Shown here in pieces: positions 4,407 through 64,000 of a DNA stretch of 64,000 bases. The position numbers and the translations under genes were made by a program. A model generated the notes under the pieces. It saw only the letters and a program-made list of their open reading frames with translations, was not told the origin of the DNA and made no database searches. The stretch covers positions 1 through 64,000 of the forward strand of contig CAISRB010000012.1 in assembly GCA_903887775.1 (NCBI GenBank), in the 5' to 3' direction. The DNA comes from an uncultured Bacteroidales bacterium (GTDB lineage: Bacteria; Bacteroidota; Bacteroidia; Bacteroidales; FEN-979). Each line of letters starts with the position of its first letter. The first letter of the stretch is position 1.

Positions 4407-4616
4407 TCAGGCAAATGATAATTCCTCTTCCAGCAGCATCTCACCCTCCGGTAGATATTGTTCCCGGATATCTTCCAGATAAAGTTCAAGAGAATCAACT
4501 ATATTTACTTTTACCTCCTCAACTGTTAGCCCTTGGGTAAAAACGGCAGGTAATTCCTTTAACTGCCCGATGAGGTAACCACTTTTACCTTTTTTGATTA
4601 CTATTGTGAGTTTCAT
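4407..4616 (-). CDS. hicB: HicB-like antitoxin
   Basis: This 69-residue protein has the HicB-like core: strand MKLTIVIKKG, a GYLIGQLKELPAVFTQG segment, then VEEVKVNIVDSLELYLEDI. In HicAB systems it binds HicA and blocks its RNase activity. No C-terminal DNA-binding domain is present, so this is the short form. Its start codon overlaps the stop of the wzz-like gene by 4 bp (ATGA), so it may be co-translated with a polysaccharide gene. The partner hicA follows with a frameshift. Confidence 0.8.
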   Translation of the reverse strand: MKLTIVIKKGKSGYLIGQLKELPAVFTQGLTVEEVKVNIVDSLELYLEDIREQYLPEGEMLLEEELSFA

Positions 4617-5827
4617 GATACTGATTTTAGATTCAAGTTTGGCTCCGCTTCCTGAAGGGTTTTTTTGAATTTGGCGAAGGCTGGTTTCCCGAATATAACG
4701 CCTATTCCGGTGAGTATCCCCAGGAAGATCATGATCAAAATGATATTGCTGCTTGAACTGGTTTTTACTGCATCAGATGGCGGCTCAATGATGGTGAAAA
4801 CAGGGGTGTTTTCCTGCACGTTGATTTTGGCTTGTTCGAGCAGCTGAGACAAACTGTTATATACATTGAAAGCTAGGTTATATTCGGCCTGTAGGTTTTC
4901 TCCCTGGGCAAGTGCGCTCGACTGTACCACATTCTGGTTACGGTCGCGGTAGGATGCGAGAGTCTGCTGGGCCTGCTTATATCTTTTCTCAGCGTCGGCA
5001 TGCAGTCCTTCAATAAATTCACGGTCGTTCTTGACCTTGCGCGTGCGATAATCGATGATATAGCGGGTAAGAGTGTTTACAACCGAACCGGCCAGATCTT
5101 TTGCCACCATCGGATCTCCGATATTTACGGTGATCTCCAGTAAATTCACCGAGCCTTTCTTGATTTCAGCCTTGATGCAACTGCTGATGGCGCCGATTTT
5201 CGATTTTTCTTCGGGTGTAAGTTCCAGAGATGCCGAATCGGAGGAAGCCGGTCCCATGATGGATAACCTGAGACCTGGAACCGGAGAAGTATTCGGGAGT
5301 ATGGAAGCCGGCGCGCGCTGGTGTGAGGTCATTTTTGTGGTTTCGGCTTTCTTTTTTCCTCGTATAGCGAGAAGAATGGTTCCAGGAAGTCCGATGCTGT
5401 ATTTCATGAGTATGCCTTGCAATGTGGTTCGTGGGTGTTTGTCGAAATACTGCGACAGGCTCATTTTCGACCTGGTCTTTGAGTCGGTCACCTGCTGATT
5501 CAGAACCTCGAGCCTGAAGTACACACTCCCTACGACCAATGGGTAAAGTGAGGGGGTAAGCGCATCGGCTGATGCCGTAGTCGGAACCCCGGTCAATAAC
5601 GATAGTTGTTTTAGTATGGCTGAATTAGCTGCCGGATTTGATCCGCCCGGCTCAACCAACAGGCTTACTTTCGAGGTATATTCCCTGGGGGATATGATCA
5701 CAAGCAACACCCCCAGCACAAAGAATATGCCCGTTGCGATGAGGATGGTTTTGCGTCCTTTCCAGAGTTTCAAAACGATCTGCATCAGGTCGATTTCGGA
5801 GGAAGCGGTATCGGTGGGTTCTGTCAT
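4613..5827 (-). CDS. Wzz-type polysaccharide chain-length/co-polymerase protein
   Basis: This protein of about 404 residues has a short cytoplasmic start (EIDLMQIVLKLWKGRK), a membrane helix, a Wzz domain (REYTSKVSLLVEPGG) and a long periplasmic part. That part contains a coiled-coil stretch with REFIEGLHADAEKRYKQAQQ. Near the C-terminus come a PPSDAVKT segment and a second membrane helix (IILIMIFLGILTGIGVIFG). No kinase domain is attached. The ATG at 5827 is preferred because the frame upstream of it is only translated 'gcgtt' repeat. It probably works with the SLBB protein encoded just upstream. Confidence 0.85.
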   Translation of the reverse strand: MTEPTDTASSEIDLMQIVLKLWKGRKTILIATGIFFVLGVLLVIISPREYTSKVSLLVEPGGSNPAANSAILKQLSLLTGVPTTASADALTPSLYPLVVGSVYFRLEVLNQQVTDSKTRSKMSLSQYFDKHPRTTLQGILMKYSIGLPGTILLAIRGKKKAETTKMTSHQRAPASILPNTSPVPGLRLSIMGPASSDSASLELTPEEKSKIGAISSCIKAEIKKGSVNLLEITVNIGDPMVAKDLAGSVVNTLTRYIIDYRTRKVKNDREFIEGLHADAEKRYKQAQQTLASYRDRNQNVVQSSALAQGENLQAEYNLAFNVYNSLSQLLEQAKINVQENTPVFTIIEPPSDAVKTSSSSNIILIMIFLGILTGIGVIFGKPAFAKFKKTLQEAEPNLNLKSVS

Positions 5828-5828
5828 A

Positions 5829-5861
5829 AGCGTTCTGTGTTTTGCGTTGTTGTGTTCAGCG
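5829..5861. repeat. 'gcgtt' intergenic repeat run
   Basis: A short series of gcgtt and tgttc steps lies between the wzz-like start and the PIN-domain gene. It creates a spurious N-terminal extension of the wzz frame. Confidence 0.6.
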
Positions 5862-6287
5862 TTATGGCTTTTTGCCAATTGTTTTCAGAACCTGTTCTGC
5901 ATTCAGTACCGGAATTTTTGATTTTTTAAAATCTTTCAGGTTTCGTGTGATGATAATATCCTGATTGTTTTCAATGGCCGTAAAATACTGCAATCCATCT
6001 TCAAAATCCTCAAAGTCATTGTCATTTAAGGCTAACCCTATAATTTTATCATCAAGTGGCAATACATCTGCTATTAACTTGAATTTTCGCAGGATAGCTT
6101 TTGCTTCATTCGCGCTCTTTGATTTCAATAAAATATAATTTGTATTTGCAAAAGTCAAAGAAGAAACACTGAGTGTCAAGTATTTCTTATCAGCCAGCGA
6201 AAATAAATTTGCTGAGTCAGAATAATATGGTTCTCTTTTCGCCAACAAATCAATTACGATATTGGTATCCACTAAAAGCTTCTTCAT
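5862..6287 (-). CDS. PIN-domain ribonuclease toxin (VapC-like)
   Basis: This 141-residue protein has PIN-fold acidic motifs: LLVDTNIVIDLL at the start (D7), DNDFEDFEDGLQYFTA in the C-terminal half, and an ITRNLKDFKKS segment. Such proteins are magnesium-dependent RNases that act as toxins. The start overlaps the stop of the DUF6364 antitoxin gene by 4 bp, the classic order for a toxin-antitoxin pair. All expected acidic residues appear to be present, so the toxin looks intact. Confidence 0.85.
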   Translation of the reverse strand: MKKLLVDTNIVIDLLAKREPYYSDSANLFSLADKKYLTLSVSSLTFANTNYILLKSKSANEAKAILRKFKLIADVLPLDDKIIGLALNDNDFEDFEDGLQYFTAIENNQDIIITRNLKDFKKSKIPVLNAEQVLKTIGKKP

Positions 6288-6577: not shown

Positions 6578-6596
6578 TGGCTCGCATTACATAATG

Positions 6597-11420: not shown

Positions 11421-12518
11421 TTACTGCGCTCTTCGCTTTTTTATCCATTGCTGAAAGAATGGGTCATCAATCGCATATTTGTTTTCTGTTTTCATGATGA
11501 ACCCGCTTTGCATCAGCCGTTTCAAACTGCTGTATACGGTACTTGGCGCTCCAAGGTCAAACTTGCGATAGAATGCTTCTGATAAGGGCGTTTGGTTTGA
11601 TACTGTTAAACCTATGAGCAGTTTTTTATCCGTTTTGTTGAATGCATTCCAGATGCGCTCATAATCCATATCATGAATCCGCACCAGCTCATCTATAGAT
11701 TGGGCAATGGGATCATCAACTTTATCATTTTGCGAAAGGATTTCCCAAACAACAAAGGCCATTTGCTGTGTATAATATGGATGGCAGTCGGAGAAATCGA
11801 GAATACCACTGCTGATGGATTTAATATTTCCAGATATATCGATGAAACCGCCAGCCAGATATGCTAGAAAATCATTTCGGGGTATTTTTCCCAATTGCAT
11901 AAGCATCCCGAAATGATAGAACGGGGATTTTTTCTTCTCGAAAATATTTCTGATCAGTGATTCCTGGCTGCCAAGAAAAATATAATTAACATGCTGGTGA
12001 TACTGTATGACCGACCGTAACTGACGGGTCAGGTTGGGATCAATTTGCTGCGCCTCCTGGAATTCGTCGAAAACTACGATGGTTCTTTTTTTTTCGTTGC
12101 TCAGCTTTTCAACCAGGTTTAACACATCTTCCAGCATAGGCATTGGTGATGATGCCGGCTGGAATGTGATATCCACTTCATTGCTTACAGGATTAACCGA
12201 TATTGTGGGGATAATCCTGAAGTGTTGCACAAACTGCCTGATTTTCTCGAATGGATAAACACGATATACTCTTTTGAGTAATTGTGCTGCAAAATCTTCA
12301 ATGCTGGTAATCAGTTGCAGGTCAAGAGCAATAACTGGCCGGTTCAGTTGCGAAGTAACCTTGAAAATCAAGCTTGATTTTCCAAATCTTCGCGGACTGA
12401 TTACAATGAGATGGTTGCTACTGCTTATGATTGATTTGACCTTTGCAATTTCATTAGTCCGGTTGGTAAAGTATGGTCCTTCAACAATACTTCCAAATTT
12501 AAACGGATTCCTTTTCAT
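11421..12518 (-). CDS. AAA-family ATPase of the archaeal-ATPase-like (STAND-type) group
   Basis: This 365-residue protein starts with a P-loop (SPRRFGKSSLIFK) after a YFTNRTNEI segment. A Walker B-like strand TIVVFDEFQEAQQ follows. A winged-helix part near the C-terminus reads PLSEAFYRKFDLGAPSTVYSSLKRL. This order is typical of single ATPases annotated as ATP-binding protein, related to the MNS clade of STAND ATPases. The role is not known; such genes are often mobile or linked with defence. The ATG at 12518 is preferred because a -7 box lies at 12552-12559, inside the longer open frame. It stands as a single gene between repeats. Confidence 0.85.
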   Translation of the reverse strand: MKRNPFKFGSIVEGPYFTNRTNEIAKVKSIISSSNHLIVISPRRFGKSSLIFKVTSQLNRPVIALDLQLITSIEDFAAQLLKRVYRVYPFEKIRQFVQHFRIIPTISVNPVSNEVDITFQPASSPMPMLEDVLNLVEKLSNEKKRTIVVFDEFQEAQQIDPNLTRQLRSVIQYHQHVNYIFLGSQESLIRNIFEKKKSPFYHFGMLMQLGKIPRNDFLAYLAGGFIDISGNIKSISSGILDFSDCHPYYTQQMAFVVWEILSQNDKVDDPIAQSIDELVRIHDMDYERIWNAFNKTDKKLLIGLTVSNQTPLSEAFYRKFDLGAPSTVYSSLKRLMQSGFIMKTENKYAIDDPFFQQWIKKRRAQ

Positions 12519-12551
12519 CGATTGCGAGATTATTCGTTGCGAATATTTTCG

Positions 12552-12559
12552 CAAAGATA
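12552..12559 (-). promoter_or_regulatory. Promoter -7 box of the AAA ATPase gene
   Basis: TATCTTTG on the minus strand matches TAnnTTTG. A TTG at the proper distance upstream is not seen, so the match is partial. Confidence 0.45.
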
Positions 12560-12629
12560 CTTATTGATACAATTGCGGGGATTCAATATCAGTCATATTT
12601 ATGTGTGAAATGGTATTCATCCTTTATTG

Positions 12630-12746
12630 TAGCGAAGCAATTTGCACAAGCTGCCTCAGGTGGAACGCAGTGACACCGTAGCAGTGGTGCAAGATTGCAA
12701 GCGACAAGCGACACCGTAGCAGCGATATGAAGCTGCGAGCGTCAGG
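12630..12746. repeat. Palindromic dispersed repeat, copy D
   Basis: The left end gcgaagcaatttgcacaagc and the right end gcagcgatatgaagctgcga are diverged inverted complements around caccgtagcagtggtgcaag. It abuts the stop codon of the ligase gene, so it lies at the 3' end of the large glycan operon. It could act there as a terminator-like hairpin. Confidence 0.7.
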
Positions 12747-15068: not shown

Positions 15069-15084
15069 GTTTCATTTTCTTTTT

Positions 15085-15106
15085 GTCACGCAACACGTGT
15101 CACGTT
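15085..15106. repeat. 'gtcacgc' repeat supplying the end of the GT2 gene
   Basis: gtcacgcaacacgtgtcacg lies at the junction of two genes. It encodes the last residues (VTRVA) and the stop of the upstream glycosyltransferase. The same sequence type is found twice inside the GDP-fucose synthase gene near 60.1 and 60.3 kb. Confidence 0.65.
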
Positions 15107-15859
15107 TTTATTTCCATTCACTACCTGCAACACTTTTGGCCATGCCCGGTAAATAAAATATAACGGACTCACCCTGATGCCGTTTTTTTTAAAAGCTTTA
15201 TAACAGTTGATATTTCCGCTAATTCTCTTTCTCAAGGTTCCGCTGCTTTCTCCACCCTGTCGCATTTTTAAAATAGGCCTTGGGAGGTAACAGGTGGAAA
15301 TCCTGTTTTTCTCCAAAAATCGCAGCATCAGTTCAAAATCGGCGGAGACTTGTAAATTCGTATCAAACAATCCTAACCGCTCATAAATCTCTTTCCTTAC
15401 AAAAAAAGTGGGATGCGGCGGATGCCAACCCTTAGCAAATGAGCCAGGTCTGAATTCCTTTGCATGCCAATATCTCAAAATCTTATCGGTATTGGTGGCG
15501 CTCACATAAAACAGGTCGGCATACAGGCTGTCTGATCCGGTTTTCGTCATCAGGTTGGCCACATCCTGCAACACATTTTTATCGATATACAGGTCATCGG
15601 AATTGAGAATTCCAATTACGTCGCCTTTGGACAGCATGATCCCCTTATTCATGGCATCGTACAAACCCCGATCTGGTTCTGAAACAAGACATGAAACGCA
15701 GCCTGGCTGTGATTTAATCAAGGCAACTGTATTGTCATCAGATTTGCCATCGATTATAATTTGCTCAACATCCGGGTAAGATTGTCCCTGAATAGAGTGA
15801 ATACAATCCGAAATGGTATGAGCGCTGTTGTAGGTGGGGGTGATAATGGAGAATTTCAT
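15086..15859 (-). CDS. Family 2 glycosyltransferase
   Basis: This 257-residue GT-A fold enzyme has FSIITPTYNSAHTISDCI at the start, an IIIDGKSDDNTV strand, YDAMNKGI and the metal-binding region ILNSDDLYID. FDTNLQVSADFELMLRF lies in the acceptor half. It would add one sugar to the lipid-linked repeat unit on the cytoplasmic side. Its start overlaps the stop of the upstream transferase by 4 bp. The C-terminus is made from a dispersed 'gtcacgc' repeat. The donor and linkage cannot be read from the sequence. Confidence 0.85.
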   Translation of the reverse strand: MKFSIITPTYNSAHTISDCIHSIQGQSYPDVEQIIIDGKSDDNTVALIKSQPGCVSCLVSEPDRGLYDAMNKGIMLSKGDVIGILNSDDLYIDKNVLQDVANLMTKTGSDSLYADLFYVSATNTDKILRYWHAKEFRPGSFAKGWHPPHPTFFVRKEIYERLGLFDTNLQVSADFELMLRFLEKNRISTCYLPRPILKMRQGGESSGTLRKRISGNINCYKAFKKNGIRVSPLYFIYRAWPKVLQVVNGNKNVTRVA

Positions 15860-16815
15860 TTAATCTCGATTATCTCATTTAAATATAACCCCATGACCCG
15901 GTAAAAGAATCTTTTCATCCAACTAAATTTCAAATTTATGGTTGCATATTTATTTGAATCAATGCCATATGATTCAACTTTAGTTATATAGGAAAGATAA
16001 ATGTCCTGCAGAACATTTTTTACTGATCCGAAATAATAAATGGTATTCGCATTCCATTTATTATTTTCGATTTTCTTCAAGTATGAGAAATGATAAATAA
16101 CCAGGGGAGCATCATTTACATGGAATTTTCCATCAATGTTCCGGAAACAGTAGTTTGCGATGTTCCAGGGTGCCGTATCTACACCAATATTTTCAATTAT
16201 TTTAACTCCATTATATTTGCTTTCCCACCCATCTAAAAATATCTGATCAGAAAAATATTTCAGATGATAACCCGGGATGCCTTTATACCAGTTTGTACAA
16301 TCATATTGCCAATCCTTTAAGCATTTTATTGAAGTTTCGTCATTCCGGAAAAAATTTACGCCGACATTGTATCTGCCATGATTTTTAGACAGGATTCTAT
16401 ATATTGGTGTAAACCGATGTGAGCAATAGGCAATTGAAGCTGCTCCCACCTCCTTATACAAAACGTCGAGTGAATTAAACACAAAAACATCAGCATCCAG
16501 GTAGAGCAGCAAATCGATTTCGGGGTTTTGCTCCAGGATATACAAGCAAATATTGGATGTTGCTGAAAAATAATATTGCTTGTTATCCTCGAATCGGTCG
16601 ATGGAAGTTTGAAAATAGTCATTGTATTCCTGAAATGAAATTAATTTCAGGTTAGCCTCGTTTAACCCCTTCAGATAGTCAAATGTTTTATCATCAAATG
16701 TCAATACATAAAAATCAAATTCATTGTGAAACCGTTTGATTGAATGAAAAAGAGCCAGGCCCCTGGGTAAAAAATTGTAATCGAAATAGGTGCAGATATG
16801 TTTTTTATGCGTCAT
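15856..16815 (-). CDS. GT8-like nucleotide-diphospho-sugar transferase
   Basis: This 319-residue protein begins HICTYFDYNFLPRGLALFHS, the usual start of glycosyltransferases that scan a sugar-nucleotide fold. It carries a DAD metal motif in LLLYLDADVFVFNSL (107-109) and a GRYNVGVNFFRN segment followed by FSDQIFLDGW. Proteins like this are annotated as glycosyltransferases of a GT8/GT77-like group and occur in O-antigen loci. The gene overlaps the GT2 gene downstream. The donor is unknown. Confidence 0.75.
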   Translation of the reverse strand: MTHKKHICTYFDYNFLPRGLALFHSIKRFHNEFDFYVLTFDDKTFDYLKGLNEANLKLISFQEYNDYFQTSIDRFEDNKQYYFSATSNICLYILEQNPEIDLLLYLDADVFVFNSLDVLYKEVGAASIAYCSHRFTPIYRILSKNHGRYNVGVNFFRNDETSIKCLKDWQYDCTNWYKGIPGYHLKYFSDQIFLDGWESKYNGVKIIENIGVDTAPWNIANYCFRNIDGKFHVNDAPLVIYHFSYLKKIENNKWNANTIYYFGSVKNVLQDIYLSYITKVESYGIDSNKYATINLKFSWMKRFFYRVMGLYLNEIIEIK

Positions 16816-18324: not shown

Positions 18325-19131
18325 CTATTGTAACTGTTTCTTTTTCCTGAAAAGAAAACCCTTCATCTTTGAAGGGATGTTAATATGCTCATCGACCTCG
18401 AATTCATAAATAAGATCGTACCCGGGTAAAAAAAAGTTTACAAATTTATTTTCATTAAAAAACCAGCAGGGATATTTCGCTTTATATATTTTTTTGGGAA
18501 CCTTTTGGAGGGTCAATTTATCCTTGCCCTCAGGAACGAATGTAGTTCTATCGATTAAAATATATTCAACATTTGAACGGAATATTTCCTCAAGAATCCT
18601 GAAAGGATCTTCCAGATATTGCAAAACGCTTGACAAAATCAATAAATTTATTGGATAGGTCTGTAAACATTCTTCGATCGTATAAAAATAATGCAGTTTT
18701 TTCTCAGCAAATTGCGCTTTTCCCAAATCAACAAAATGGTGTTGTTCGACTATACACCAGTTAAAGTCCCTAAGAGATTCTAAAAATAATTTGTTTTGAT
18801 AAAAAGAAGAACCCAGTGAACCTCCGAAATCCAGGATGTTAACTTTATTCTCCTTTTGTGTTGCCACCCAAAGAATGGCTGCCAGAAGTGGATAAGAGTA
18901 AAGGATCTCGCTAAAATTTACCGAATCTCTTTCAAATGGGAATCTACCCTGTTTAACATTTAAAGTGGCAGATTTTACTTTCTCCAAAATCATTTCCGAA
19001 TTGTAACCAGAACACAATTGACTTGCTTCCTCCCAAGATTGGTATGATCCATGCCATCCATAAAACAACCCGATTATTTTTCTCAATAAAAAGGGTGGTG
19101 TAAGGTCCTTTACTTTGGATTTAAACGACAT
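18325..19131 (-). CDS. Putative methyltransferase, TIGR04325 (LIC12133) family
   Basis: This 268-residue protein has a GWHGSYQSWEEASQLCSGY start segment, then the SAM-site-like ILDFGGSLGSSFY (DFGGSLG 101-107), then LLILSSVLQYLEDPF and LIDRTTFVPEG. These are the marks of the TIGR04325 family, found in surface-polysaccharide loci. The likely role is methylation of a sugar or a polymer end, though activity of the family is not well tested. Its start overlaps the polymerase gene upstream by 11 bp. Confidence 0.82.
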   Translation of the reverse strand: MSFKSKVKDLTPPFLLRKIIGLFYGWHGSYQSWEEASQLCSGYNSEMILEKVKSATLNVKQGRFPFERDSVNFSEILYSYPLLAAILWVATQKENKVNILDFGGSLGSSFYQNKLFLESLRDFNWCIVEQHHFVDLGKAQFAEKKLHYFYTIEECLQTYPINLLILSSVLQYLEDPFRILEEIFRSNVEYILIDRTTFVPEGKDKLTLQKVPKKIYKAKYPCWFFNENKFVNFFLPGYDLIYEFEVDEHINIPSKMKGFLFRKKKQLQ

Positions 19132-20476
19132 TTTTCGGTTTTATATCTTGTTGATAAGTCAAACCAAAGACCCAAACAATTATAAAAATAATTGTTCCGG
19201 TAAGCCCCATAATGTTATCTGTAAAATAAGAGGTTGAAAATAAATATATAGAAGTTAAAATTGAACCAAGAGCAATAACTCTGCACAATAAATCATTTTT
19301 TGACCTTAAATGTGCCATATGCACTTTAAGGATTTGAAAAAAAAGAAAAGTAAAAACTAACACACCCGGAAACCCAAAAACAAGTACAATATTCGTAAAA
19401 CTATTGTCGAAGGTTGGGTAAAGGGCAAATTTATTATTTTGATAATCGCTATCACTGGTGATGTGCCAGGAGAATCCTGTACCAAATATTAATTTTTTCT
19501 TAACAATATAATCAACCGTATTAACCAGAATCGCAGTACGTGATGTAACGCTTCCTCCTCCGGGGGATTTTTCAATATTAACAGATGTTTGAATCATGTC
19601 GTGGATATAGTTGTTATTATGTTTTAAGAAATAATAACCACCGGATAGGCATAATAAAATAAAAAATAAAATAATTGAAAAAAACAATTTTCTATTTTTT
19701 CTAATTTGATAAACAAAATAAATAATTGCAATAAATAAACAGAAGAAAAATGACACCAAAACACTCCTGTGAAATTGTATTAAAACACCTCCGGCCAGAA
19801 TTAACATGAACAATATATCGATTATATTTATCTTTCTTTTTATAACAACTTCACCCATTTTGATGAAAAAACCCAAGGCAATGATAGATCCCGTGAGGGA
19901 ATAAAGTCTCCATTTCGTGGTAATTGACTCTCCTCTGGAAATAATAACCGTTCCGGTCGACTCATTAAAAAATGAAACATAAAATTCTACTAAAGAACAT
20001 AATATGGCCAGATATACTATAAGGACAAGGATTTTTTTAAGATCGGCCGGCGTTTTTAACAAGGCCAATAAAAAAAAGAATAAAAGGTAAATATGCATTC
20101 TTTTAACAGCATACAATAATTCTGGAACTGTCAGGTCTTTCAGAACAAAACAATCTATGATGGATTTAGCCAGAGCGATGAAGAATAATACAAAAAACAA
20201 TAAAGAGGGTAATCGTAGTGAATTAAAATTTTTATAATTGAATGCTTTTAATTTAATGGCAATAACCACTACCATTGAAATTAACGTAATCAATTGAAGA
20301 ATTCCCAGTAAATTGAAATTTCCCAAGCCTAATCCACCTTGAGGGAAAATTCCACACCCCTTTATTTCAACGAACAGAACAAATCCAATTAACAGGATAT
20401 TCCAGGGAATTTTATATTTCACCTTTTGATACAGAATAAATAACTTCTTTTCTACAACGGAAATCATATTCGTCAT
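19121..20476 (-). CDS. O-antigen polymerase (Wzy-like) membrane protein
   Basis: This 451-residue, strongly hydrophobic protein has about eleven or twelve membrane helices. The longest non-membrane loop, in the C-terminal half, contains the GGGSVTSRTAILVNTVDYI segment and KLIFGTGFSWH, as in Wzy_C proteins. It probably polymerises lipid-linked repeat units in the periplasm. The sequence is very A+T rich, as is usual for Wzy genes. It overlaps both neighbours by a few bases. Confidence 0.8.
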   Translation of the reverse strand: MTNMISVVEKKLFILYQKVKYKIPWNILLIGFVLFVEIKGCGIFPQGGLGLGNFNLLGILQLITLISMVVVIAIKLKAFNYKNFNSLRLPSLLFFVLFFIALAKSIIDCFVLKDLTVPELLYAVKRMHIYLLFFFLLALLKTPADLKKILVLIVYLAILCSLVEFYVSFFNESTGTVIISRGESITTKWRLYSLTGSIIALGFFIKMGEVVIKRKINIIDILFMLILAGGVLIQFHRSVLVSFFFCLFIAIIYFVYQIRKNRKLFFSIILFFILLCLSGGYYFLKHNNNYIHDMIQTSVNIEKSPGGGSVTSRTAILVNTVDYIVKKKLIFGTGFSWHITSDSDYQNNKFALYPTFDNSFTNIVLVFGFPGVLVFTFLFFQILKVHMAHLRSKNDLLCRVIALGSILTSIYLFSTSYFTDNIMGLTGTIIFIIVWVFGLTYQQDIKPKNVV

Positions 20477-28436: not shown

Positions 28437-29813
28437 TTATTTTAACCAGATTCCCGTTGCTGTTCCCCGTACGATCTTAAAATATTGAATGGGGGTAAAC
28501 AACGAATTGAGGAACATGATCAAACAGCTTCCAAGGATTACACCCTCGAGGCCGATTGCCTTACCAAATAAAACTGCCACGGGAATTGTAAGAACACCAA
28601 GTATGGTGGAGCTATAGAGTTGAACCCTGATCTTGCCAATGCCATTCAAAAAAAATGCAAATATATTATTCCAATTGATCATGATGGCATACAGCCCCAT
28701 CAGGCAGGTAATGCCAAACGGAATTTTTATTTCCGGTCCAACCCAAATCCGGTAGATGAGATCTGCACTGAAAATCATGATAATGGTAAGAACTGACATA
28801 AGCGCCCATATTTTCAGAAGACCTTTGACAGAACTCTTTATCCAGGCATGATCCGATCGGCAATAGGCTTCGGTAAAGGCCGACCAGAATGGTGCAAGTA
28901 TGATGTTGAATACAGCAATGGGTAGTGAAAAGTACTTCAGGGCAATGTTGTAAATGGTTACCTCGGCTGGTCCGAAAAGCTGGGAAATAATGATATTCGA
29001 TGTTGTAAATATGGTGATGGCCATTATTTGAATAATAAAAAACTGAACGCCCAGATTCATCAGATCTTTAGCATAAGAAAATTTAACAAACAGGAAAGAA
29101 GGTTTGTATTGCCTGTATTTTTTGCGAAAAAACCAGATGGTTGATCCTAAAAGGATTATAATTGGTGACCCTCCCATCACATAACCGAGATAAATCAAAT
29201 TTCCCTTTGTAAATTTTATCAATATTAATATAAGAATCAGGGATAATAGGCTGCTTAGCATATTTAAAAAACCTGCAAGAGCCGGTTTTTGATCGGCAGT
29301 TAAAATTGTGGTGATCAATTGAAAAACAAATTGCATGCTAAAGAAAGCAAACACGATGATGGCCAGAACATTTAAACCTGAGGCCATATCAGGCGATGTA
29401 TTTAAAATTTTGGACCAGTCCAGCCAGAAATTGACAAAGAGGAAAATGACAAAAACAGTTAAAATTATGATACTCAAAATGGCATAGGTCGTACTGATAT
29501 AAATACGGGCAAGTTCATGTTTCCCCAAGGTTATCGCCTCTGTAAAACGGTTTCGCAATCCATTTCCAAACCCGATATCAAAAAACGAAGCCCACCCAAT
29601 AATGGAACTCAATGTCAGCCAGATGCCATAATTTGTAGGGTTTACATATTTTATAGTAATGGGAACCAACGCTAAAGAAATCAATATACTAATCCCCTTT
29701 ACCATAAAAGAGGCGAAGATATTACGCTTCGCTTTCCTGCTGCGTTCGTGACCTTTCGTAAAAAAGTTAATGATAAAATCGGGGCTCAATGATTTTAATT
29801 TCGATTTAAGCAT
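28437..29813 (-). CDS. wzx: Oligosaccharide-lipid flippase (Wzx-like, MATE/MOP superfamily)
   Basis: This 458-residue protein has about twelve to fourteen membrane helices. The start FASFMVKGISILISLALVPITIKYVNP and NYGIWLTLSSIIGW fit polysaccharide flippases of the MOP superfamily. It moves undecaprenyl-diphosphate-linked repeat units to the periplasmic side. It is the only such flippase seen in the window. It is the first gene of the lower operon, with a terminator-like hairpin and the IS4 element just upstream, so its promoter may lie in or next to those sequences. Confidence 0.85.
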   Translation of the reverse strand: MLKSKLKSLSPDFIINFFTKGHERSRKAKRNIFASFMVKGISILISLALVPITIKYVNPTNYGIWLTLSSIIGWASFFDIGFGNGLRNRFTEAITLGKHELARIYISTTYAILSIIILTVFVIFLFVNFWLDWSKILNTSPDMASGLNVLAIIVFAFFSMQFVFQLITTILTADQKPALAGFLNMLSSLLSLILILILIKFTKGNLIYLGYVMGGSPIIILLGSTIWFFRKKYRQYKPSFLFVKFSYAKDLMNLGVQFFIIQIMAITIFTTSNIIISQLFGPAEVTIYNIALKYFSLPIAVFNIILAPFWSAFTEAYCRSDHAWIKSSVKGLLKIWALMSVLTIIMIFSADLIYRIWVGPEIKIPFGITCLMGLYAIMINWNNIFAFFLNGIGKIRVQLYSSTILGVLTIPVAVLFGKAIGLEGVILGSCLIMFLNSLFTPIQYFKIVRGTATGIWLK

Positions 29814-46040: not shown

Positions 46041-47471
46041 TTATTTTCCTGTTCCTTTCAAAACTGCTACAATGGTCATAAAAATAATTTTCAAATCAAG
46101 CCAAATAGACCAATTGTCGATATATTCAAGGTCGAGTTTTACCCAATCGTCAAAATTATTTATTTTGTTTCTTCCACTGGCCTGCCATAAGCATGTGATA
46201 CCTGGTTTGATGCTCAGTTTGCGTCGGTGCCAACTTTCATATTGGTCAAGTTCATGTGGACCGGCAGGTCGTGGGCCAACAATGCTCATATCTCCTTTCA
46301 AAACACTGAAAAATTGGGGTGTTTCATCTATACTCCATTTTCGTAACCACTGGCCAAATGGTAAAATTCGCGGATCATTCGAAATTTTAAAAACAGGACC
46401 ATTCATTTCATTACTGTGCTTCAAATTCTCCTTCATCATATCGGCATCTTTTACCATGGTTCGAAATTTCCATGACTTAAAAGGCTTTTTATTCAACCCA
46501 ACCACCTTCCAGTTATAGAAAACCGGTCGGCCATCGGTAATAAGAATTCCAAGACTGGCAATGATCATGAAAGGGAAAAATAGAATTAATGCTGATATGG
46601 AGCCCAGAATATCAATTAAACGTTTTATATATCCTTGCATCTCGGATTGGCTAACTGTATTTAGGCTGATAATATTTAGACCATACAATTGGTCAATTTG
46701 AATGTTTTTAGATAGTCGACCAAAAAAATCAGATGTAATGCGCACCAGAACACCTTCTCTCTGACAGACATCTAGTATATTAGTGATATATGAAATTTCA
46801 CTAACCGCAATAGTAACAATTAATTCATCAGGGCAGTGTTGTTTAAGAATCTTTTCTATTTCATTATATGTACCCAGGACAGGAAGATTAAGCTGTTTCC
46901 CAACAAAATGCGTATTGTTCTCTACAACAATTCCAATGATATCAAAGCCCCAACTGAATTTTTTTAAAACAGTCTCAATAAATAAATTTGCCTGGATCCC
47001 AGTTCCTATTAGAATAACCTTACGTCTGTTAAATCCATTTTTTCGAATAAATTTTACAATTAATAATAACATCATTTTTTGAGAAAACAGCAATCCAAAA
47101 ACGGTTAAAAATTCAAGAATTAGATAGGTGCGTTGTATAATAACATGTGTGACCATATAAAGTGCAAACGCTGCTATAAACAACCAAAGTAATGTTGCTT
47201 TGAAAACTATCCAAAATTCGTTCCTATATGAGGTGAAACGCTGTAAACTATAAGCTCCTAAATAATTTAAAATCCAGATGAATAGTAAGGCAAAAGCTGG
47301 CAATAGCAAATACCAGTCGAAATCATAATACAGAGGAGGAGAAACAGATTGCCAATGAATAAAAGTAAATGCTAGTTTCCACAATTCAAAAGAAATGTAG
47401 AAACTTAGAATTACACAAAGAAAATCTGCTAACTGTGCAATTCGCTTATGATAATAAGGGCGCCAGATCAT
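46041..47471 (-). CDS. Polyprenyl glycosylphosphotransferase (WbaP/WcaJ-type priming enzyme 1)
   Basis: This 476-residue protein has five membrane helices at the N-terminus, a CoA-binding-like middle (VILIGTGIQANLFIET), and the catalytic sugar transferase domain in the last 190 residues. That domain has WKFRTMVKDADMM, WSIDETPQFFSVLKGDMSIV, GPRPAGPHEL and KPGITCLWQASGRN. It puts the first sugar phosphate on undecaprenyl phosphate. It is one of two such enzymes in the locus. It is complete. Confidence 0.9.
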   Translation of the reverse strand: MIWRPYYHKRIAQLADFLCVILSFYISFELWKLAFTFIHWQSVSPPLYYDFDWYLLLPAFALLFIWILNYLGAYSLQRFTSYRNEFWIVFKATLLWLFIAAFALYMVTHVIIQRTYLILEFLTVFGLLFSQKMMLLLIVKFIRKNGFNRRKVILIGTGIQANLFIETVLKKFSWGFDIIGIVVENNTHFVGKQLNLPVLGTYNEIEKILKQHCPDELIVTIAVSEISYITNILDVCQREGVLVRITSDFFGRLSKNIQIDQLYGLNIISLNTVSQSEMQGYIKRLIDILGSISALILFFPFMIIASLGILITDGRPVFYNWKVVGLNKKPFKSWKFRTMVKDADMMKENLKHSNEMNGPVFKISNDPRILPFGQWLRKWSIDETPQFFSVLKGDMSIVGPRPAGPHELDQYESWHRRKLSIKPGITCLWQASGRNKINNFDDWVKLDLEYIDNWSIWLDLKIIFMTIVAVLKGTGK

Positions 47472-55162: not shown

Positions 55163-56425
55163 TCAGACTATTTCTTTGTGTAAAGGTCCGTCCAAATATC
55201 TAATTTTATTTATAACCCCCATGATCGTATAGAAATACACAATATTACTCATATACATGTAGTCCGTAAAAAATGCCTGAATACTAATTGATGCGATAAA
55301 AGAAATAGTAAATATTGCAATTACTAAATGTTGTTTATCTTTTTTGTTAATGATCTGTAGAGCCTTTCGTACAGTCTTAAATATTAAAAATAACAGCATA
55401 CTAAATCCAACAATACCACTACTCAGGAAAAAATAAAGAAAACCGTTTTCAACAGTACTAAAAGTTCCGTAACTTTCTTTGGGAATTACATAAGGTAATC
55501 CATGTATAAGATTATTCAATAGATTGTTGTAATAAATTCCAAATAGAAAATCCGTAACCTGCCAATGACTCATAGAATTAAAATGCGCCAACCACCAACC
55601 TACCCTGCCGTTTTCAAGAAGTATATTTTTGCCAATAAACCGTGTAAATAGTCCAATAAATATATTACCATAAATCGTAAATACAATAATGCAGGCAGTA
55701 ATAATCATGAACAACATTGATGGGAGCTTTTTCACCCTTGAGCCTATGCTATTGATAACGACAGTTTTGTTATTGTAATAATAAAAACAAAAGAAAAACA
55801 AAATTGCCCCCAATAATCCATTCCTTGATACAGTAAGTAATAGAAATATCAAAAAAAGAATCATTATATAAATATAAATCAATTTCTTCGAAAACATATA
55901 CTGTAAATAACAAAACATCACAGCAAGAACAAGATAGGTTGAATATACGTTTGGAATATGAGTCCAACCTCCCGCCCGTTCAAACCCCGTTATATCTATA
56001 TGTCCTGTTTTGAAAAAATCACCAGTACATATTGAAATAATCGAAAGGACCAAAACTCCTATCACATACCAAAAACTCATTTTAAGAAAACATATAATAT
56101 CCTTATTGCTATTAATAGTCTTTAAAATGCCAAATGCAACTAAAAAAGGTAATAGGGTATAGTACAAAAATCTATGTTTATCACGATCAAACAATTCATT
56201 AATTTCAAGTTTTCCAAGAAATATCCAAAAAATCACTGAAACAACAGGGATTAAAAATAAAATTAATTCATAGGAATTAATTCGAAAGGATGAACCAAGA
56301 TATATCAAGCCAGTTATTACTAGAACAATTGAAAGGGTCGTATAACCAAATTGGATTGTAATAAATGGTTGAGTATAAAAAAAAAACCAAATGATATTTT
56401 GAAAAAACAATTTATTAATTTTCAT
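55163..56425 (-). CDS. O-antigen ligase/polymerase family membrane protein (Wzy-like 2)
   Basis: This 420-residue protein has about eleven membrane helices. The region with LILLFLIFLLLTVSRNGLLGA-like text (LLLTVSRNGLLGAILFFF) carries the conserved Arg of Wzy_C/WaaL proteins, and a periplasmic loop with NGRVGWWLAHFNSM follows. It probably polymerises or ligates a glycan. It is the second or third protein of its kind in the locus. It overlaps the GT4 gene upstream by 4 bp. Confidence 0.8.
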   Translation of the reverse strand: MKINKLFFQNIIWFFFYTQPFITIQFGYTTLSIVLVITGLIYLGSSFRINSYELILFLIPVVSVIFWIFLGKLEINELFDRDKHRFLYYTLLPFLVAFGILKTINSNKDIICFLKMSFWYVIGVLVLSIISICTGDFFKTGHIDITGFERAGGWTHIPNVYSTYLVLAVMFCYLQYMFSKKLIYIYIMILFLIFLLLTVSRNGLLGAILFFFCFYYYNNKTVVINSIGSRVKKLPSMLFMIITACIIVFTIYGNIFIGLFTRFIGKNILLENGRVGWWLAHFNSMSHWQVTDFLFGIYYNNLLNNLIHGLPYVIPKESYGTFSTVENGFLYFFLSSGIVGFSMLLFLIFKTVRKALQIINKKDKQHLVIAIFTISFIASISIQAFFTDYMYMSNIVYFYTIMGVINKIRYLDGPLHKEIV

Positions 56426-58579: not shown

Positions 58580-59905
58580 TTATCTCCCTTCATGAAACAG
58601 CATGGTTGCAATGGTCTTCAGGGCAATTGATAGATCAAAAGAAAGTGAGCGGTGCTTTAAATAAAATAAATCATGCTGGAGTTTTTCCATTGTGTCAATC
58701 AATGTAGGGGAGTGATAACTTCCGGAAATTTGGTCCCAACCGGTCAGTCCTGGTTTGATCAATAACCTGGTTTTATAAAATGGAATATGTCGTTCCAACT
58801 CAACGATTAATTCGGGCCTTTCCGGTCGTGGTCCGATGAAACTCATATCACCACTTAGCACATTTAAAACCTGCGGTATTTCATCAAGTCGGGTTCTGCG
58901 TAAAAAAGTTCCCAGTTTTGTTATGCGGAGATCATTTTTCTCAGTTGGAGAGCCATCATTATTGTCGATCCGCATGGTGCGAAATTTTATTATTTTATAT
59001 TCTTTTTCGTTTTTCCCAAACCGCACTTGCCTGAAAAACACAGGTCCCTTGCTTGTCGTTTTAATAGCAATTCCGATCAGTATCCATAATGGAGAAGTGC
59101 CAATAAAAATTAAAACAGCAAGTACACAATCTATACCCCGCTTTATAGCATTATAATAGTTTTTTTGACCCGCTTTAAGATTTTCTAAAAACCAATTCTG
59201 TCCTATTGCTTCGACCGGGATTTTTCCGGTTAACAGTTCATAAAAATCAGGATAATTAATAAAATCCACTTTAAAAGAGAGACAACGAAATAAAGCATTC
59301 TCCATGCGCTCACTCTCTCCAAAGTCGTCACACACTACTATCACCTGTATGTTTTTTGCCTGAACATTTTCGGTCAAACTATCAATATTGTTTGTGTCCT
59401 GCAAAATCATTGCCAACCTATAAACCCCAGCAGGATTTTTCGATAATTCATCTATCAGTGTCTTGGCATTTTTATCCTTACCAATGATCGCCAGGTTAAT
59501 CTGAGGGATAACCTTTACGATATAAGATTTATATGAGAGTCTCCATAAAATAAAAAGAACCGTGTAAATGCCTATGAAAATCGCTAAGTTCGTTTTTGGG
59601 GTAATGGTAGGTTGATCAACAATGTAAAAAAAGATAACAGAAAATATACTGCTGATCAGAACTGCATTCAGGGTAAGCCTGATAAATTTCCGATCGAACG
59701 TCTGAAAATTCAGATTATACAGATCAAGGGCATAAAACACAACCAACCAAATTACAAATACGATAGAAAAATCGGGCCAGTGATGTAAAAAATCGAACAA
59801 ATGGTTACCATAGGGATAACGGATATATAATGTTATCAGTAGGGCTAAATGCAGAAACAGTAAATCGCCGCTGAAAAGAAGAAGTTTTTTTATGGTCTTA
59901 ACCAT
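58580..59905 (-). CDS. Polyprenyl glycosylphosphotransferase (WcaJ-type priming enzyme 2)
   Basis: This 441-residue protein has four or five membrane helices at the N-terminus, a Rossmann-like middle, and a C-terminal catalytic sugar transferase domain. That domain has IKFRTMRIDNNDG, LRRTRLDEIPQVLNVLSG, DMSFIGPRPERPELI and KPGLTGWDQISGSY. It resembles the colanic-acid initiator WcaJ. The segment IKRGIDCVLAVLIFIGTSPL marks the start of the catalytic part. With the enzyme at 46.0 kb it is one of two such priming transferases, and both look complete. Confidence 0.9.
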   Translation of the reverse strand: MVKTIKKLLLFSGDLLFLHLALLITLYIRYPYGNHLFDFLHHWPDFSIVFVIWLVVFYALDLYNLNFQTFDRKFIRLTLNAVLISSIFSVIFFYIVDQPTITPKTNLAIFIGIYTVLFILWRLSYKSYIVKVIPQINLAIIGKDKNAKTLIDELSKNPAGVYRLAMILQDTNNIDSLTENVQAKNIQVIVVCDDFGESERMENALFRCLSFKVDFINYPDFYELLTGKIPVEAIGQNWFLENLKAGQKNYYNAIKRGIDCVLAVLIFIGTSPLWILIGIAIKTTSKGPVFFRQVRFGKNEKEYKIIKFRTMRIDNNDGSPTEKNDLRITKLGTFLRRTRLDEIPQVLNVLSGDMSFIGPRPERPELIVELERHIPFYKTRLLIKPGLTGWDQISGSYHSPTLIDTMEKLQHDLFYLKHRSLSFDLSIALKTIATMLFHEGR

Positions 59906-59910: not shown

Positions 59911-61017
59911 TTATCTGATATAACTCTGATATACCATTTTTATCCCTTCGTAAAGAGTGTGCTGAGGCAAGAAACCAAGAATTTTTAATTGGGCAACATC
60001 AAGCAACTTTTTGAAAGTGCCATCAGCATGGGTTTGATCAAATTTGATCTCACCATCGAATCCAACAATTTTTTTTATGATAAGAGAAAGATCATAGATT
60101 GTTTGATCCAAACCTGTACCGATGTTTAAAAACGTTATGCGTGATGCGTGATGCGTGACAAAATCTTTTATGTTAAACTCTTTCATGATTTTTACACAGG
60201 CAGAGGCCATGTCGTCGACGTGCATGAATTCGCGGAAGACCTGGCCGGAGCCCCAAAGCGTAACACGTAACAAGTGACGCGTGATAGAAACATCAGGGTT
60301 ATCCTCCAAAATTAACTCAATTCCATATTTTTTTAAGATATTCAGAATCTCATCTTCTGTCGAATTGCCGTTTATTCCTCCGATGGGGTGGTTGGTAAGA
60401 TCTTTACGGATTCCTTCCCAGTTGCCAGTTTCGAGGCAGTGGGCTAAATGCACTTTTCGCAAGATGGCAGGGAGAACGTGGGAAGTTTCGAGGTTGTAAT
60501 TGTCGTTGGGGCCATAGAGGTTAGTTGGCATGACCGATATGAAGTTGGTGCCATACTGCAAATTGTAGGATTCACACATTTTAATCCCTGCAATTTTCGC
60601 AATTGCATAGGGCTCATTGGTATTTTCCAACTCCCCCGTGAGCAGATATTCTTCTTTTAGTGGTTGAGGTGCATTCTTAGGATAGATGCATGAACTCCCC
60701 AGAAAAAGTAATTTTTTAACTCTATTCACATAAGCATTGTGAATGATGTTATTTTGGATCATTAAATTTTCATAGATAAATTGCGCACGATAGGTATCAT
60801 TTGCCAGTATCCCTCCAACCTTTGCAGCTGCCAAAAAAACATAATCCGGTTTCTCGGAAGCAAAAAAGTCAGTTACTGCCTTCTGATTTGTTAAATCAAG
60901 TTCCTCAAGAGTTCTGCCAATTAAATTCCGATAACCTTCTTCCCTGAGCCTCCTGACAATAGCTGAACCGACCATACCAGTATGACCTGCAATAAATATC
61001 TTGCTGGATAGTTTCAT
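59911..61017 (-). CDS. fcl: GDP-L-fucose synthase with repeat-derived insertions
   Basis: This 368-residue SDR has IFIAGHTGMVGSAIVRRL, DYVFLAAAKVGGILAND, LFLGSSCIYPKNAPQP and EPYAIAKIAGIKMCES (Tyr/Lys). A NYNLETSHVLPAILRKVH segment and FREFMHVDDMASACV follow. It converts GDP-4-keto-6-deoxymannose to GDP-L-fucose. Bacteroidota Fcl proteins are already longer than E. coli Fcl (about 320) because of an insertion near the WEGIRKDLTNHPIGGI text. Here there are further in-frame 'gtcacgc'-type inserts at about residues 245-254 and 286-296, each a multiple of three bases. The catalytic parts are unaffected. Confidence 0.9.
   Translation of the reverse strand: MKLSSKIFIAGHTGMVGSAIVRRLREEGYRNLIGRTLEELDLTNQKAVTDFFASEKPDYVFLAAAKVGGILANDTYRAQFIYENLMIQNNIIHNAYVNRVKKLLFLGSSCIYPKNAPQPLKEEYLLTGELENTNEPYAIAKIAGIKMCESYNLQYGTNFISVMPTNLYGPNDNYNLETSHVLPAILRKVHLAHCLETGNWEGIRKDLTNHPIGGINGNSTEDEILNILKKYGIELILEDNPDVSITRHLLRVTLWGSGQVFREFMHVDDMASACVKIMKEFNIKDFVTHHASRITFLNIGTGLDQTIYDLSLIIKKIVGFDGEIKFDQTHADGTFKKLLDVAQLKILGFLPQHTLYEGIKMVYQSYIR
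60131..60160. repeat. 'gtcacgc' repeat inserted in frame in fcl (copy 1)
   Basis: aacgttatgcgtgatgcgtg followed by atgcgtgaca encodes the sequence FVTHHASRIT on the minus strand. The unit gcgtgat is repeated three times. Confidence 0.7.
60258..60285. repeat. 'gtcacgc' repeat inserted in frame in fcl (copy 2)
   Basis: gcgtaacacgtaacaagtga followed by cgcgtgat encodes the minus-strand residues SITRHLLRVTL just before the WGSG motif. Confidence 0.65.
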
Positions 61018-61046: not shown

Positions 61047-62297
61047 TCAAGAATTTCCTTTATGCCTCACATTTTTCCTATTAACGCTTTTATCCCAATA
61101 TTTCTTTCCAAACACAATGCCGATGCCCAAGATGATTCCAAGGAATCCCATCACCATTACGATCTTTTTTATATTTACTGTATTTACTTGAGTTGCACTT
61201 GTTGCTGGTTCCAACACATTAATTTCCGGAGCTTTTTTCACCGCATCGATGCTAACTTGTTCAATCTGGTTCTTCGTATCAATTAATACCTGTTGAAGCT
61301 GCTTCTCTGCATCGAGTTTTGCTTGTTCAAGCTTCTCATTGGCATCGAGTTTTGCAATTTGAAGTTGTTTTTCTGCATCGATTTTAACTTGTTCAAATTG
61401 TTTCTTTGCATTTATTTTTAACGATTCAAGTTGCTGATATAAACTACTGTAAACATTGTACTTCAATTTGATATCCGCATTTATTCGTTTGACCTCAAGG
61501 CTATCTATCGATTCGGGATTTTTTGAATTCCCTTTATAATATTCTGCAAGGGCCTTTTGAGATTGGAGATAGTCCGATTCAGCTTTATGATATCCTTCGG
61601 CGAGGAATTGAATTTCTTTCGCAGAACCGTCATTCTGATACTGAATATTTTTGGTAATACCTTCATTCAAAAATTCAATGTTTTTTGAAGTACCTTTCGA
61701 TAAATACTGAAGATTTCTTGAAGCAGTTTCTCTTATTTGCTGAAATTTTCGTGAGGTATCTGAAGCCAGCAACTCCTGATTTTTTACTGCTCTTTTTATC
61801 TGGATTTCTTTGAGAAATTGGGTAAGTTTTTCAACTAGGCTGTCAGCCATTAGTTTTGCTGTATATTGATCTGGCATTTTCACAGTGATCAAAAGGATTC
61901 CAGCATTCCCTTTTGTTGCATTGATGCGGTCTGTCAAGCCAGTTATGTTTCCCTGGGGTGGTTTTGTTTGCTGGTCGAGTAACTCTGCAACAGTGAGGGC
62001 CGTTCCTGGTTTTAACCCTATAAGCCGTATTTTCAGTACTTCGGATATAAAAAGTGGACTCTTCGTCACAGTAATCAATGAATCGGGTGAAGGTGAGTCG
62101 ACCATCAGGGTTACCTGGGATTCGTATTCTTTAGTTCCGGTATAAGAACTAAGGAGGATATAAATAACCGCCATGGCAACAAAAGCCGCCGTGGTGATCA
62201 GAATGATCCAGCGTCCTGCCCAAACCTGTCGAAAAAGTTCAACAAGATCAATCTCGTCGTCGTTCATTTGTTGAACATTTGGCTCTTTATTTTCCAT
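61047..62297 (-). CDS. Wzz-type protein with two 11-residue repeat arrays
   Basis: This 416-residue protein has EIDLVELFRQVWAGRW, a membrane helix (30-50), a Wzz domain (KEYESQVTLMVDSPSPD) and a C-terminal membrane helix (about 379-397). The middle carries two arrays of 11-residue units. The first covers 181-235 in five copies (TSRKFQQIRET to SAKEIQFLAEG); the second covers 294-359 in six copies of the form KxDAEKQLxQx (KIDAEKQLQIA, KLDANEKLEQA, KLDAEKQLQQV). An 11-residue period is the sign of a straight, right-handed coiled coil. It should reach far into the periplasm and govern chain length or export. No kinase domain is attached. Confidence 0.85.
   Translation of the reverse strand: MENKEPNVQQMNDDEIDLVELFRQVWAGRWIILITTAAFVAMAVIYILLSSYTGTKEYESQVTLMVDSPSPDSLITVTKSPLFISEVLKIRLIGLKPGTALTVAELLDQQTKPPQGNITGLTDRINATKGNAGILLITVKMPDQYTAKLMADSLVEKLTQFLKEIQIKRAVKNQELLASDTSRKFQQIRETASRNLQYLSKGTSKNIEFLNEGITKNIQYQNDGSAKEIQFLAEGYHKAESDYLQSQKALAEYYKGNSKNPESIDSLEVKRINADIKLKYNVYSSLYQQLESLKINAKKQFEQVKIDAEKQLQIAKLDANEKLEQAKLDAEKQLQQVLIDTKNQIEQVSIDAVKKAPEINVLEPATSATQVNTVNIKKIVMVMGFLGIILGIGIVFGKKYWDKSVNRKNVRHKGNS
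61221..61418 (-). repeat. 33-bp tandem repeat coding for the 11-residue array 2
   Basis: Six units of about 33 bp (gcatcgagttttgcttgttc and similar) encode residues 294-359 of the second Wzz-like protein. Units 2-4 are most alike. Confidence 0.75.
61593..61757 (-). repeat. 33-bp repeat coding for the 11-residue array 1
   Basis: Five diverged units encode residues 181-235, each ending with G, T or EG and carrying KN(I/L)-aromatic-L in the middle. Confidence 0.65.
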
Positions 62298-62424: not shown

Positions 62425-62970
62425 TTATTGATGCTGAATATCGGTTTGTTTCCAAAGCAGCAGGGCTGCTGGATTGTCTTGCAGCAGAGCTATAGTTTCT
62501 TCGCGGGAAACAATAGTATAATGAATGCTTCGGCTGATGATCTTTTCAGCCTTTTCAATTAACTGCATAAGGTATTCCCTGTCAATGCCGTTCCCTACCA
62601 GCAGCAGGTCTATCGCAGGATTGTCGTGGCCCCGGGCAAAGCTCCCGGTCACATAGGCGCTGTGTAGTCCGCCCAGGTTAGTCACCACGTTTTCAATCAC
62701 GTGATCAATCCCTGTATGCTTAAGTAAAAGCCGGTGGATGTCGCTGAACAGCGGATGTTGCCGGTTGGCCTGGAATACTTTTTTGTTGCCTGCTATTTTG
62801 GACTGCAGCAATCCCGCCTTTTCCATATGGTTGAGTTCAACGCGAATTGCGTTGGTCGATTCGCCATATTCAGCCGCCAGGTCCCTCAAATAAGAGGTCG
62901 TGGTGCTATTAAGGAAAAACTTTAGCAGTAACTTTATCCTGGTTTTGGAGGTGATCAGAGATTCAAGCAT
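62425..62970 (-). CDS. Winged-helix regulator fused to a nucleotidyltransferase-like domain
   Basis: This 181-residue protein starts with a winged helix (LESLITSKTRIKLLLKFFLN, then LRDLAAEYGESTNAIRVELN, then LNHMEKAGLLQSK). A MNT-like fold follows, with YVTGSFARGHDNPAIDLLLVG (Gly109 to Asp121). In active enzymes the second motif is DxD; here it is Ala119-Ile120-Asp121, so one metal ligand is missing. I recall related fusions near capsule genes in Bacteroidota, where the DNA-binding part is thought to control the locus. It is the first gene of the minus-strand set with a clear promoter, so it is a candidate regulator of the polysaccharide operon. Confidence 0.8.
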   Translation of the reverse strand: MLESLITSKTRIKLLLKFFLNSTTTSYLRDLAAEYGESTNAIRVELNHMEKAGLLQSKIAGNKKVFQANRQHPLFSDIHRLLLKHTGIDHVIENVVTNLGGLHSAYVTGSFARGHDNPAIDLLLVGNGIDREYLMQLIEKAEKIISRSIHYTIVSREETIALLQDNPAALLLWKQTDIQHQ

Positions 62971-63042
62971 ATCTGCTTTATTTCATTTTACGTTTTGGTG
63001 TTTTACGTTAAGGTGTTGTTGCGTTTTGACCTTTGCGAGCAA

Positions 63043-63224: not shown

Positions 63225-64000
63225 TTATGGGGTTTGGCGGGAAATCCAAAGGCCGATACTTTCTTTGGCTGTGATTGTGCTGTTTCTAAGGGCCTCAGCA
63301 TCAGGAAGCAACAGGTTAAGAGAGAAGGGTGGTTTTACGATCTCGAAATCGGCTGGTGCGGGAATGACCTTGAGTCCTGTACGGTCGAAGAGCCAATATG
63401 CCCGGGGCATGTGCCGGGCTGAAGTGACCAGGAGTATGGATTTGCCTTTCACTGGTTCCATAAGTCTCTGGATCTGCCGGGCATTTTCAAGTGTGTTTTT
63501 GCTGAGGCCTTCGACGATGATCACCTCAGCCGGTACACCTAGCAATTCCAGGAATTCTTTCATGGCCACTCCTGCCACACCGGTTCCCGAAATAAGGTCA
63601 ACGCCTCCGCTGGCAATAATCTTTTTCGCCCGGCCGGCTTTGTATAGCTGAGAGGCAAAGAGTTCGCGGTCAGCGGCGGAATTCAGGTCTAAGGATGGCA
63701 GCTTCGGGCCTGCATCACCCCGGATGCCACCACCCAGCACCACGATTGCATCAGCCAAAGGATAGGCTGCGGCCGGCTTCCATGGATTTTGTGACTCCAG
63801 TTTCCCTTGAAGGTAGTTGCCCCACATCGGGGTACTCCACAACCACAGCCATCCAAAGAGGAAAACAAGCAATACGATCGTTGCCTTCCGCCGTTTATAA
63901 ACAATTAATAAAATAGATGTGATTAAAACCATGATGGCCCATCCCAGGGGCATGAGGAAAAGGGAAAGGGCTTTGTATAAAAAATAGTTTAGTCCGAGCA
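63225..64000 (-). CDS. DUF218 (YdcF/SanA/ElyC-like) membrane protein, 5' end beyond the window
   Basis: The frame is open to the window edge; its first visible residues LGLNYFLYKALSLFLMPLGW continue into a membrane helix, so the internal ATG at 63953 is probably not the true start. The DUF218 domain has ADAIVVLGGGIRGDAG, YKAGRAKKIIASGG, VIIVEGLSKNTLENARQI, ILLVTSARHMPRAYWLF and LKVIPAPADFEI. Such proteins take part in envelope polysaccharide or peptidoglycan metabolism and are often near wzz-like genes. The role is not defined further. Confidence 0.85.
   Translation of the reverse strand, partial: LGLNYFLYKALSLFLMPLGWAIMVLITSILLIVYKRRKATIVLLVFLFGWLWLWSTPMWGNYLQGKLESQNPWKPAAAYPLADAIVVLGGGIRGDAGPKLPSLDLNSAADRELFASQLYKAGRAKKIIASGGVDLISGTGVAGVAMKEFLELLGVPAEVIIVEGLSKNTLENARQIQRLMEPVKGKSILLVTSARHMPRAYWLFDRTGLKVIPAPADFEIVKPPFSLNLLLPDAEALRNSTITAKESIGLWISRQTP

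Follow-up and report, generated by a model that had tools for sequence, protein, structure and literature searches.

A Wzz-type polysaccharide co-polymerase with length-matched arrays of 11-residue units in the two legs of its predicted periplasmic hairpin

The mechanism by which Wzz proteins determine the length of polysaccharides is described as unsettled for decades (PMC13161533). The class 1 co-polymerases of Escherichia coli, WzzB (6RBG), WzzE (8BHW), and FepE, share with the Wzz protein analyzed here a Wzz N-terminal domain, two predicted transmembrane (TM) helices, a base domain, a helical hairpin, a GxxxG motif in TM2, and the lack of a kinase, but the window protein carries 55 extra residues in each leg of the hairpin. 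Class 1 co-polymerases are also marked by a ring of 8-9 subunits and by control of polymer chain length. GxxxG in TM2 together with preceding prolines is given as a class 1 feature (PMC7809406), and the periplasmic domains of the solved WzzB and FepE are reported to be about 100 Å tall (PMC7809406, PMC13161533). Interior volume has been argued to set O-antigen length, with 39,571 cubic Å and about 26 repeat units for WzzB and 143,033 cubic Å and about 95 repeat units for FepE; the two proteins compared in this 2026 cryo-EM study have chambers that differ chiefly in width (PMC13161533). The class 2 tyrosine kinase Wzc and KpsE gave the best fold matches of our model; unlike Wzc, the window protein has no kinase domain, its ORF ending after TM2. 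In the WbdD coiled-coil ruler of E. coli O9a, coiled-coil insertions and truncations are reported to alter O-antigen length (PMC5082667). However, WbdD belongs to an ABC transporter-dependent pathway (PMC3482155) and forms a parallel trimer with chain-terminating enzymes, and the likeness would be one of similar logic only. In length variants of E. coli Lpp, helix length in whole repeats is described as setting envelope distance (PMC5736177); in contrast to the window Wzz, these variants are built of heptads, belong to an outer-membrane lipoprotein, and are engineered rather than natural. Among the open-licence PMC papers listed on the subject, none described 11-residue arrays in Wzz in its title or the start of its abstract, and no open-licence paper searched combined Wzz with hendecad.

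The gene lies on the minus strand of the window, the whole 64,000-nucleotide stretch of DNA that was analyzed, as an intact ORF of 416 amino acids counted from its ATG. Its product matched the Pfam Wzz domain (PF02706; E 3.7e-11, 43.6 bits against a cut-off of 25.5), which bore out an earlier note made from the sequence that had called it Wzz-like. Wzz was the only Pfam domain above cut-off. No kinase region was matched in the 416 residues, and the NCBIfam Wzc model covered residues 7-76 only, below its cut-off. Two hydrophobic stretches coincided with AF2 helices 29-53 and 376-413, giving two predicted TM helices that flank the periplasmic domain. In TM2, G387, G391, and G393 were invariant in a four-sequence alignment; among 12 aligned Wzz proteins, P357 was invariant and P364 nearly so, both preceding TM2. 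The window protein shows every defining Wzz feature open to computation. Its layout is as follows.

61047..62297, minus strand: Wzz-type polysaccharide co-polymerase gene with matched 11-residue arrays, 416 aa (ORF, Pfam, Foldseek)
62139..62213, minus strand: predicted TM helix 1, about residues 29-53 (AF2 helix 29-53; Pfam Wzz match 14-73)
61875..62129, minus strand: periplasmic alpha/beta base domain, residues 57-141 (AF2 strands 57-66, 125-129, 134-141; aligns with array-less Wzz)
61587..61784, minus strand: array 1 in the rising helix, with six units of 11 residues (172-237), which lengthens this arm by 55 residues over array-less Wzz (AF2 helix 144-256; alignment)
61416..61586, minus strand: residues 238-294, comprising the tip of the hairpin and the conserved upper parts of its arms, of the length found in ordinary Wzz (segment lengths, motif spacing)
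61251..61415, minus strand: array 2 in the falling helix, with five units of 11 residues (295-349), which lengthens this arm likewise by 55 residues (AF2 helix 266-354; alignment)
61185..61229, minus strand: return strand to the base domain, starting P-x-I-N-V-L-E-P-A, residues 357-371 (AF2 strands 359-363, 369-371)
61059..61172, minus strand: predicted TM helix 2 and cytoplasmic tail, glycine-rich, with GxxxG at G387-G391, residues 376-413 (AF2 helix 376-413)

Self-matching of residues at period 11 reached z 7.0 over residues 171-240 and z 7.9 over residues 290-360, with 0 of 500 shuffles as high, and the 33-bp period of the DNA reached z 7.5 and 8.9 for the two arrays (300 codon shuffles). 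TRF detected part of array 2 only (61292-61385, period 33, 2.9 copies). The two arrays and the DNA period claimed in the earlier note therefore stand, and its unit counts of five and six were corrected to six and five full units. Five of the six homologous units of array 1 are extra relative to array-less Wzz, as are all five full units of array 2, which is followed by a degenerate part-unit that enters the P-x-I-N-V-L-E-P-A strand. The commonest residues over nine units were [KR]-N-[IF]-Q-[YF]-L-x-E-G-x-S for array 1 and [IL]-D-A-x-K-Q-[LFI]-E-Q-[VA]-K for array 2. When periods 6-19 were scanned in 95 distinct co-polymerase-type ORFs, strong period 11 appeared in two, the window protein (20/44) and a homologue, L026 (23/44), and the other 93 scored at most 14. 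A Pseudomonas Wzz-type ORF scoring 13/44 (L039) was rejected, as inspection by eye found no repeat array in it.

A hendecad coiled coil has its hydrophobic core spaced 3-4-4 per 11 residues, at about 98.2 degrees per residue, and a supercoil that is straight or right-handed. At this angle (11/3), the hydrophobic periodicity of array 1 was 72.6 versus 23.7 at the heptad angle (shuffle p 0.002). Array 2 peaked at 97.0 degrees and did not rise above shuffles (p 0.23); the arrays of L026 gave p 0.054 and 0.38. In at least eight of nine units, array 2 was hydrophobic at positions 3, 7, and 10 (and 1), and array 1 at positions 3, 5, and 6; position 10 of array 1 was hydrophobic in only four of nine. 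Neither a heptad coil nor disorder, the two outcomes that would have spoken against the earlier proposal of an 11-residue coil, was seen: array 1 fits the hendecad angle far better, and both arrays were predicted as continuous helix in the AF2 monomer.

A search of 61 related genomes gave two useful homologues. L026, from a Bacteroidales MAG named fen_979 (G026), has 386 amino acids, is 70% identical to the window Wzz, and bears arrays; L027 (from G033; the same gene as L007) has 303 amino acids and is the nearest array-less relative. When 12 Wzz proteins were aligned with MAFFT without constraints, the window Wzz had exactly 55 extra residues (five units) in the arm before the tip and exactly 55 after it, L026 had exactly 44 and 44, and the other ten, including a paralogue in the window at 4616-5878, had 0 and 0. 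The alignment-free spacing of conserved motifs was 92/47/67 in the window Wzz, 81/47/56 in L026, and 37/47/12 in L027, so that the tip between the arrays was constant at 47. The arrays are length-matched partners, one in the rising and the other in the falling helix of the hairpin predicted for the periplasm, a relation that the earlier note had missed. Because the two known array bearers share ancestry, few evolutionary events stand behind the matching: about two contrasts are independent, namely the original gain and a one-unit change in both arms.

Arm lengths were also compared among Wzz-type ORFs. From 121 ORF hits, 95 were distinct; the 56 over 150 bits were aligned and one fragment (L079) was removed, leaving 55 with both arms complete. 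The 39 weaker ORFs left out before alignment included proteobacterial Wzz, Wzc-type, and other distant co-polymerases, and the sample includes 40 extra stretches partly picked for unusual length. A rising arm of 33 and a falling arm of 10 residues between anchors were found in 53 of the 55, the two exceptions being the array bearers. Segment lengths were 33/34/8/10 in 52 proteins and 33/35/8/10 in one, versus 88/34/8/65 in the window Wzz and 77/34/8/54 in L026; the tip segment (Q247 to V282 in the window Wzz) thus had 34 residues in 54 of 55 and 35 in one. This indicates that the hairpin has one length in the sample and that only the two array bearers depart from it, both legs having changed by the same number of whole 11-residue units. 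Judged by its sequence, the window protein is a member of the Wzz family that its arrays set apart from the 53 array-less members measured with both arms complete.

Of 43 genomes from the bacterial family, two held array bearers. No further ones appeared among 393 genomes of the order, 395 of the class, and 395 of the phylum (overlapping samples that include the window's own genome), where the order and class searches gave up to 4 candidates per genome among the matches listed and the phylum search, which took array 2 together with its flanking sequence as query, up to 13. A scan of genome contigs, which required exact short patterns, gave 36 loci; a scan of viral contigs gave no relative, and plasmids gave no match. 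Over all of these searches, the window Wzz and L026 were the only array bearers to appear. Such rarity is not proof of absence elsewhere. PF02706 itself is common: of the 344 genomes taken as a sample of the order, 294 have a match. In seven other genomes of the genus (G001-G007), nothing matched the window Wzz at E 0.001, and other PF02706 proteins were present in four searched genomes of this set. The nearest relative belongs to another genus, a pattern that suggests gene exchange or loss.

In the AF2 model of the window Wzz (a monomer from a shallow 12-row alignment; mean pLDDT 79.8, pTM 0.47), helices 144-256 and 266-354 are joined by a short loop, whereas the array-less L027 has helices 143-200 and 207-243. 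The predicted unbroken helices are thus 113 and 89 residues long versus 58 and 37, an excess of 55 and 52 residues between the two monomer models, or about 80 Å at 1.5 Å per residue. Foldseek matched the window model to Wzc 9r68 (E 7.2e-12), WzzE 8bhw (7.2e-7), WzzB 6rbg (8.4e-6), and KpsE, and placed the L027 model with Wzc, WzzE, KpsE, and WzzB too. TM-scores to 9r68, 8bhw, and 6rbg were low for the window model (0.23-0.36) and 0.27-0.52 for the L027 model; the low scores of the window model are probably due to its longer hairpin. A second structural comparison was led by KpsE 8tsi_H (Z 15.0, rmsd 3.4, 178 aligned) and Wzc 7nhr_C (Z 13.9, rmsd 5.8, 214 aligned). The Z-scores of WzzE 8bhw (Z 11.8, rmsd 19.8, 284 aligned) and WzzB 6rbg (Z 11.3, rmsd 9.3, 263 aligned) were no better than those of unrelated long coils (Smc5/6, 12.2).

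Altogether, we consider it probable that the periplasmic hairpin of this Wzz was made taller by equal numbers of 11-residue, three-turn units in its two antiparallel legs. Each step would add about 16.5 Å while the helix face stays in register, and because the step holds the register, the legs would remain paired only with an equal gain on both. As the hairpin lengthened 11 residues at a time, selection would have kept the antiparallel legs equal, and the Wzz barrel would have become taller. This suggests an evolutionary rule by which antiparallel hairpin legs must gain equal whole numbers of helix repeats. From the models, the ring would be about 80 Å taller and its interior volume larger, and a larger volume would favor longer sugar chains under the interior-volume model; an effect of the arrays on polymer length is plausible under that published model. 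By geometry rather than measurement, five unit pairs forming a tube 30-35 Å wide would add about 58,000-79,000 cubic Å, bringing the total to 2.5-3.0 times the WzzB volume. Each pair would contribute about 12,000-16,000 cubic Å, or about 39-53 hydrated sugars, by the same simple geometry. More tentatively, the protein could be a natural molecular ruler, in which barrel height is quantized by matched unit pairs of fixed volume and the modal chain length shifts stepwise. A natural Wzz whose height comes in whole paired units would open an independent route to testing the interior-volume model, and the equal lengthening of both legs offers a natural test of rod height against chain length.

The extra height could serve reach instead, the taller barrel putting the Wzz tip further out, past or in contact with the cell wall, the outer membrane, or a partner in export, and chain length would not be set by it. 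We regard this as unlikely. In its favor, the predicted extension of about 80 Å compares with a reported family height of about 100 Å (PMC7809406), Wzc as solved in a Wza-Wzc secretion complex is among the top Foldseek matches, and the other measured members keep a rigid hairpin length, as though their surroundings fix the height. However, the following two genes of the window speak against it.

4616..5878, minus strand: second Wzz, with ordinary arms (33/34/8/10), serving as an internal control (Pfam Wzz E 1.9e-10)
6667-8991, minus strand: SLBB/Wza-like export protein adjoining the second Wzz (Pfam)

The export protein is the sole Wza-like protein among 25 Pfam-scanned window proteins, and it adjoins the second Wzz, not the array gene. 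Since this paralogue is ordinary-armed in the same cell, a wider periplasm alone would be insufficient to account for the extension.

It is similarly doubtful that the matched arrays are tolerated padding, with equal legs needed for folding and the extra height functionless. The rarity of the arrays in the family, with none added in the order, class, and phylum samples, agrees with such padding. However, dN/dS between the window Wzz and L026 was about 0.22 in array 1, about 0.10 in array 2, and 0.14 over residues 1-157; synonymous sites were close to saturation. These ratios indicate that the arrays are maintained under purifying selection comparable to that on the base domain, a pattern that a folding constraint alone could also give. 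The unit motifs, moreover, are kept in both species.

In a FastTree phylogeny restricted to alignment columns with at least 60% occupancy, the array bearers formed one clade (support 1.0) that grouped with the array-less L007/L027 (0.98) and then with the array-less L013 (0.79). This placement beside array-less relatives makes a derived origin the best reading of the arrays. Identity between units of one array did not exceed 24 of 33 bases for the window gene and 25 of 33 for L026. For 10 of the 11 window-gene units, the best DNA match was in L026 and not in the unit's own array, with one tie; the best L026 match of the last unit of array 2 was not the unit at the same position. The units have diverged and have their best matches in the other species, so recent slippage is unlikely. 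The earlier idea that unit number varies by DNA slippage, and polymer length with it between cells, has the 33-bp period in its favor and is highly improbable, as the units appear too diverged for frequent slippage and slippage confined to one array would leave unequal legs, which neither known protein has.

The array-bearing Wzz is encoded at one end of a polysaccharide region that also holds glycosyltransferases and methyltransferases. The genes beside the array-bearing Wzz and further along the window are the following.

63225-63953: DUF218 protein, neighbor of the array-bearing Wzz
62425-62970: regulator-like ORF with weak matches only, neighbor of the array-bearing Wzz
59911-61017: epimerase-family protein, neighbor of the array-bearing Wzz
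58580-59905, minus strand: initiating sugar transferase (Bac_transf; Pfam)
55163-56425: 420-aa ORF with a weak match, below cut-off, to oligosaccharide repeat unit polymerase (Wzy-like)
28437-29813: Polysacc_synt (Wzx-like) protein, further along the window
12747-15068 and 19121-20476: two Wzy_C proteins, further along the window

Counterparts of the DUF218 and regulator-like genes also lie near L026, in a different order. The two Wzz genes of the window, at 4616-5878 and 61047-62297, stand at either end of a long polysaccharide region. In addition to the initiating sugar transferase listed above, the window contains a second Bac_transf at 46041-47471 (minus strand), and the presence of two may reflect two polysaccharide assembly loci side by side. 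The ligase-type Wzy_C protein at 12747-15068 (minus strand) carries C-terminal TPR repeats. Short degenerate tandem repeats of GCGTT/ACGTT-like words occur at 1879-1926, 6596-6659, and 62986-63028.
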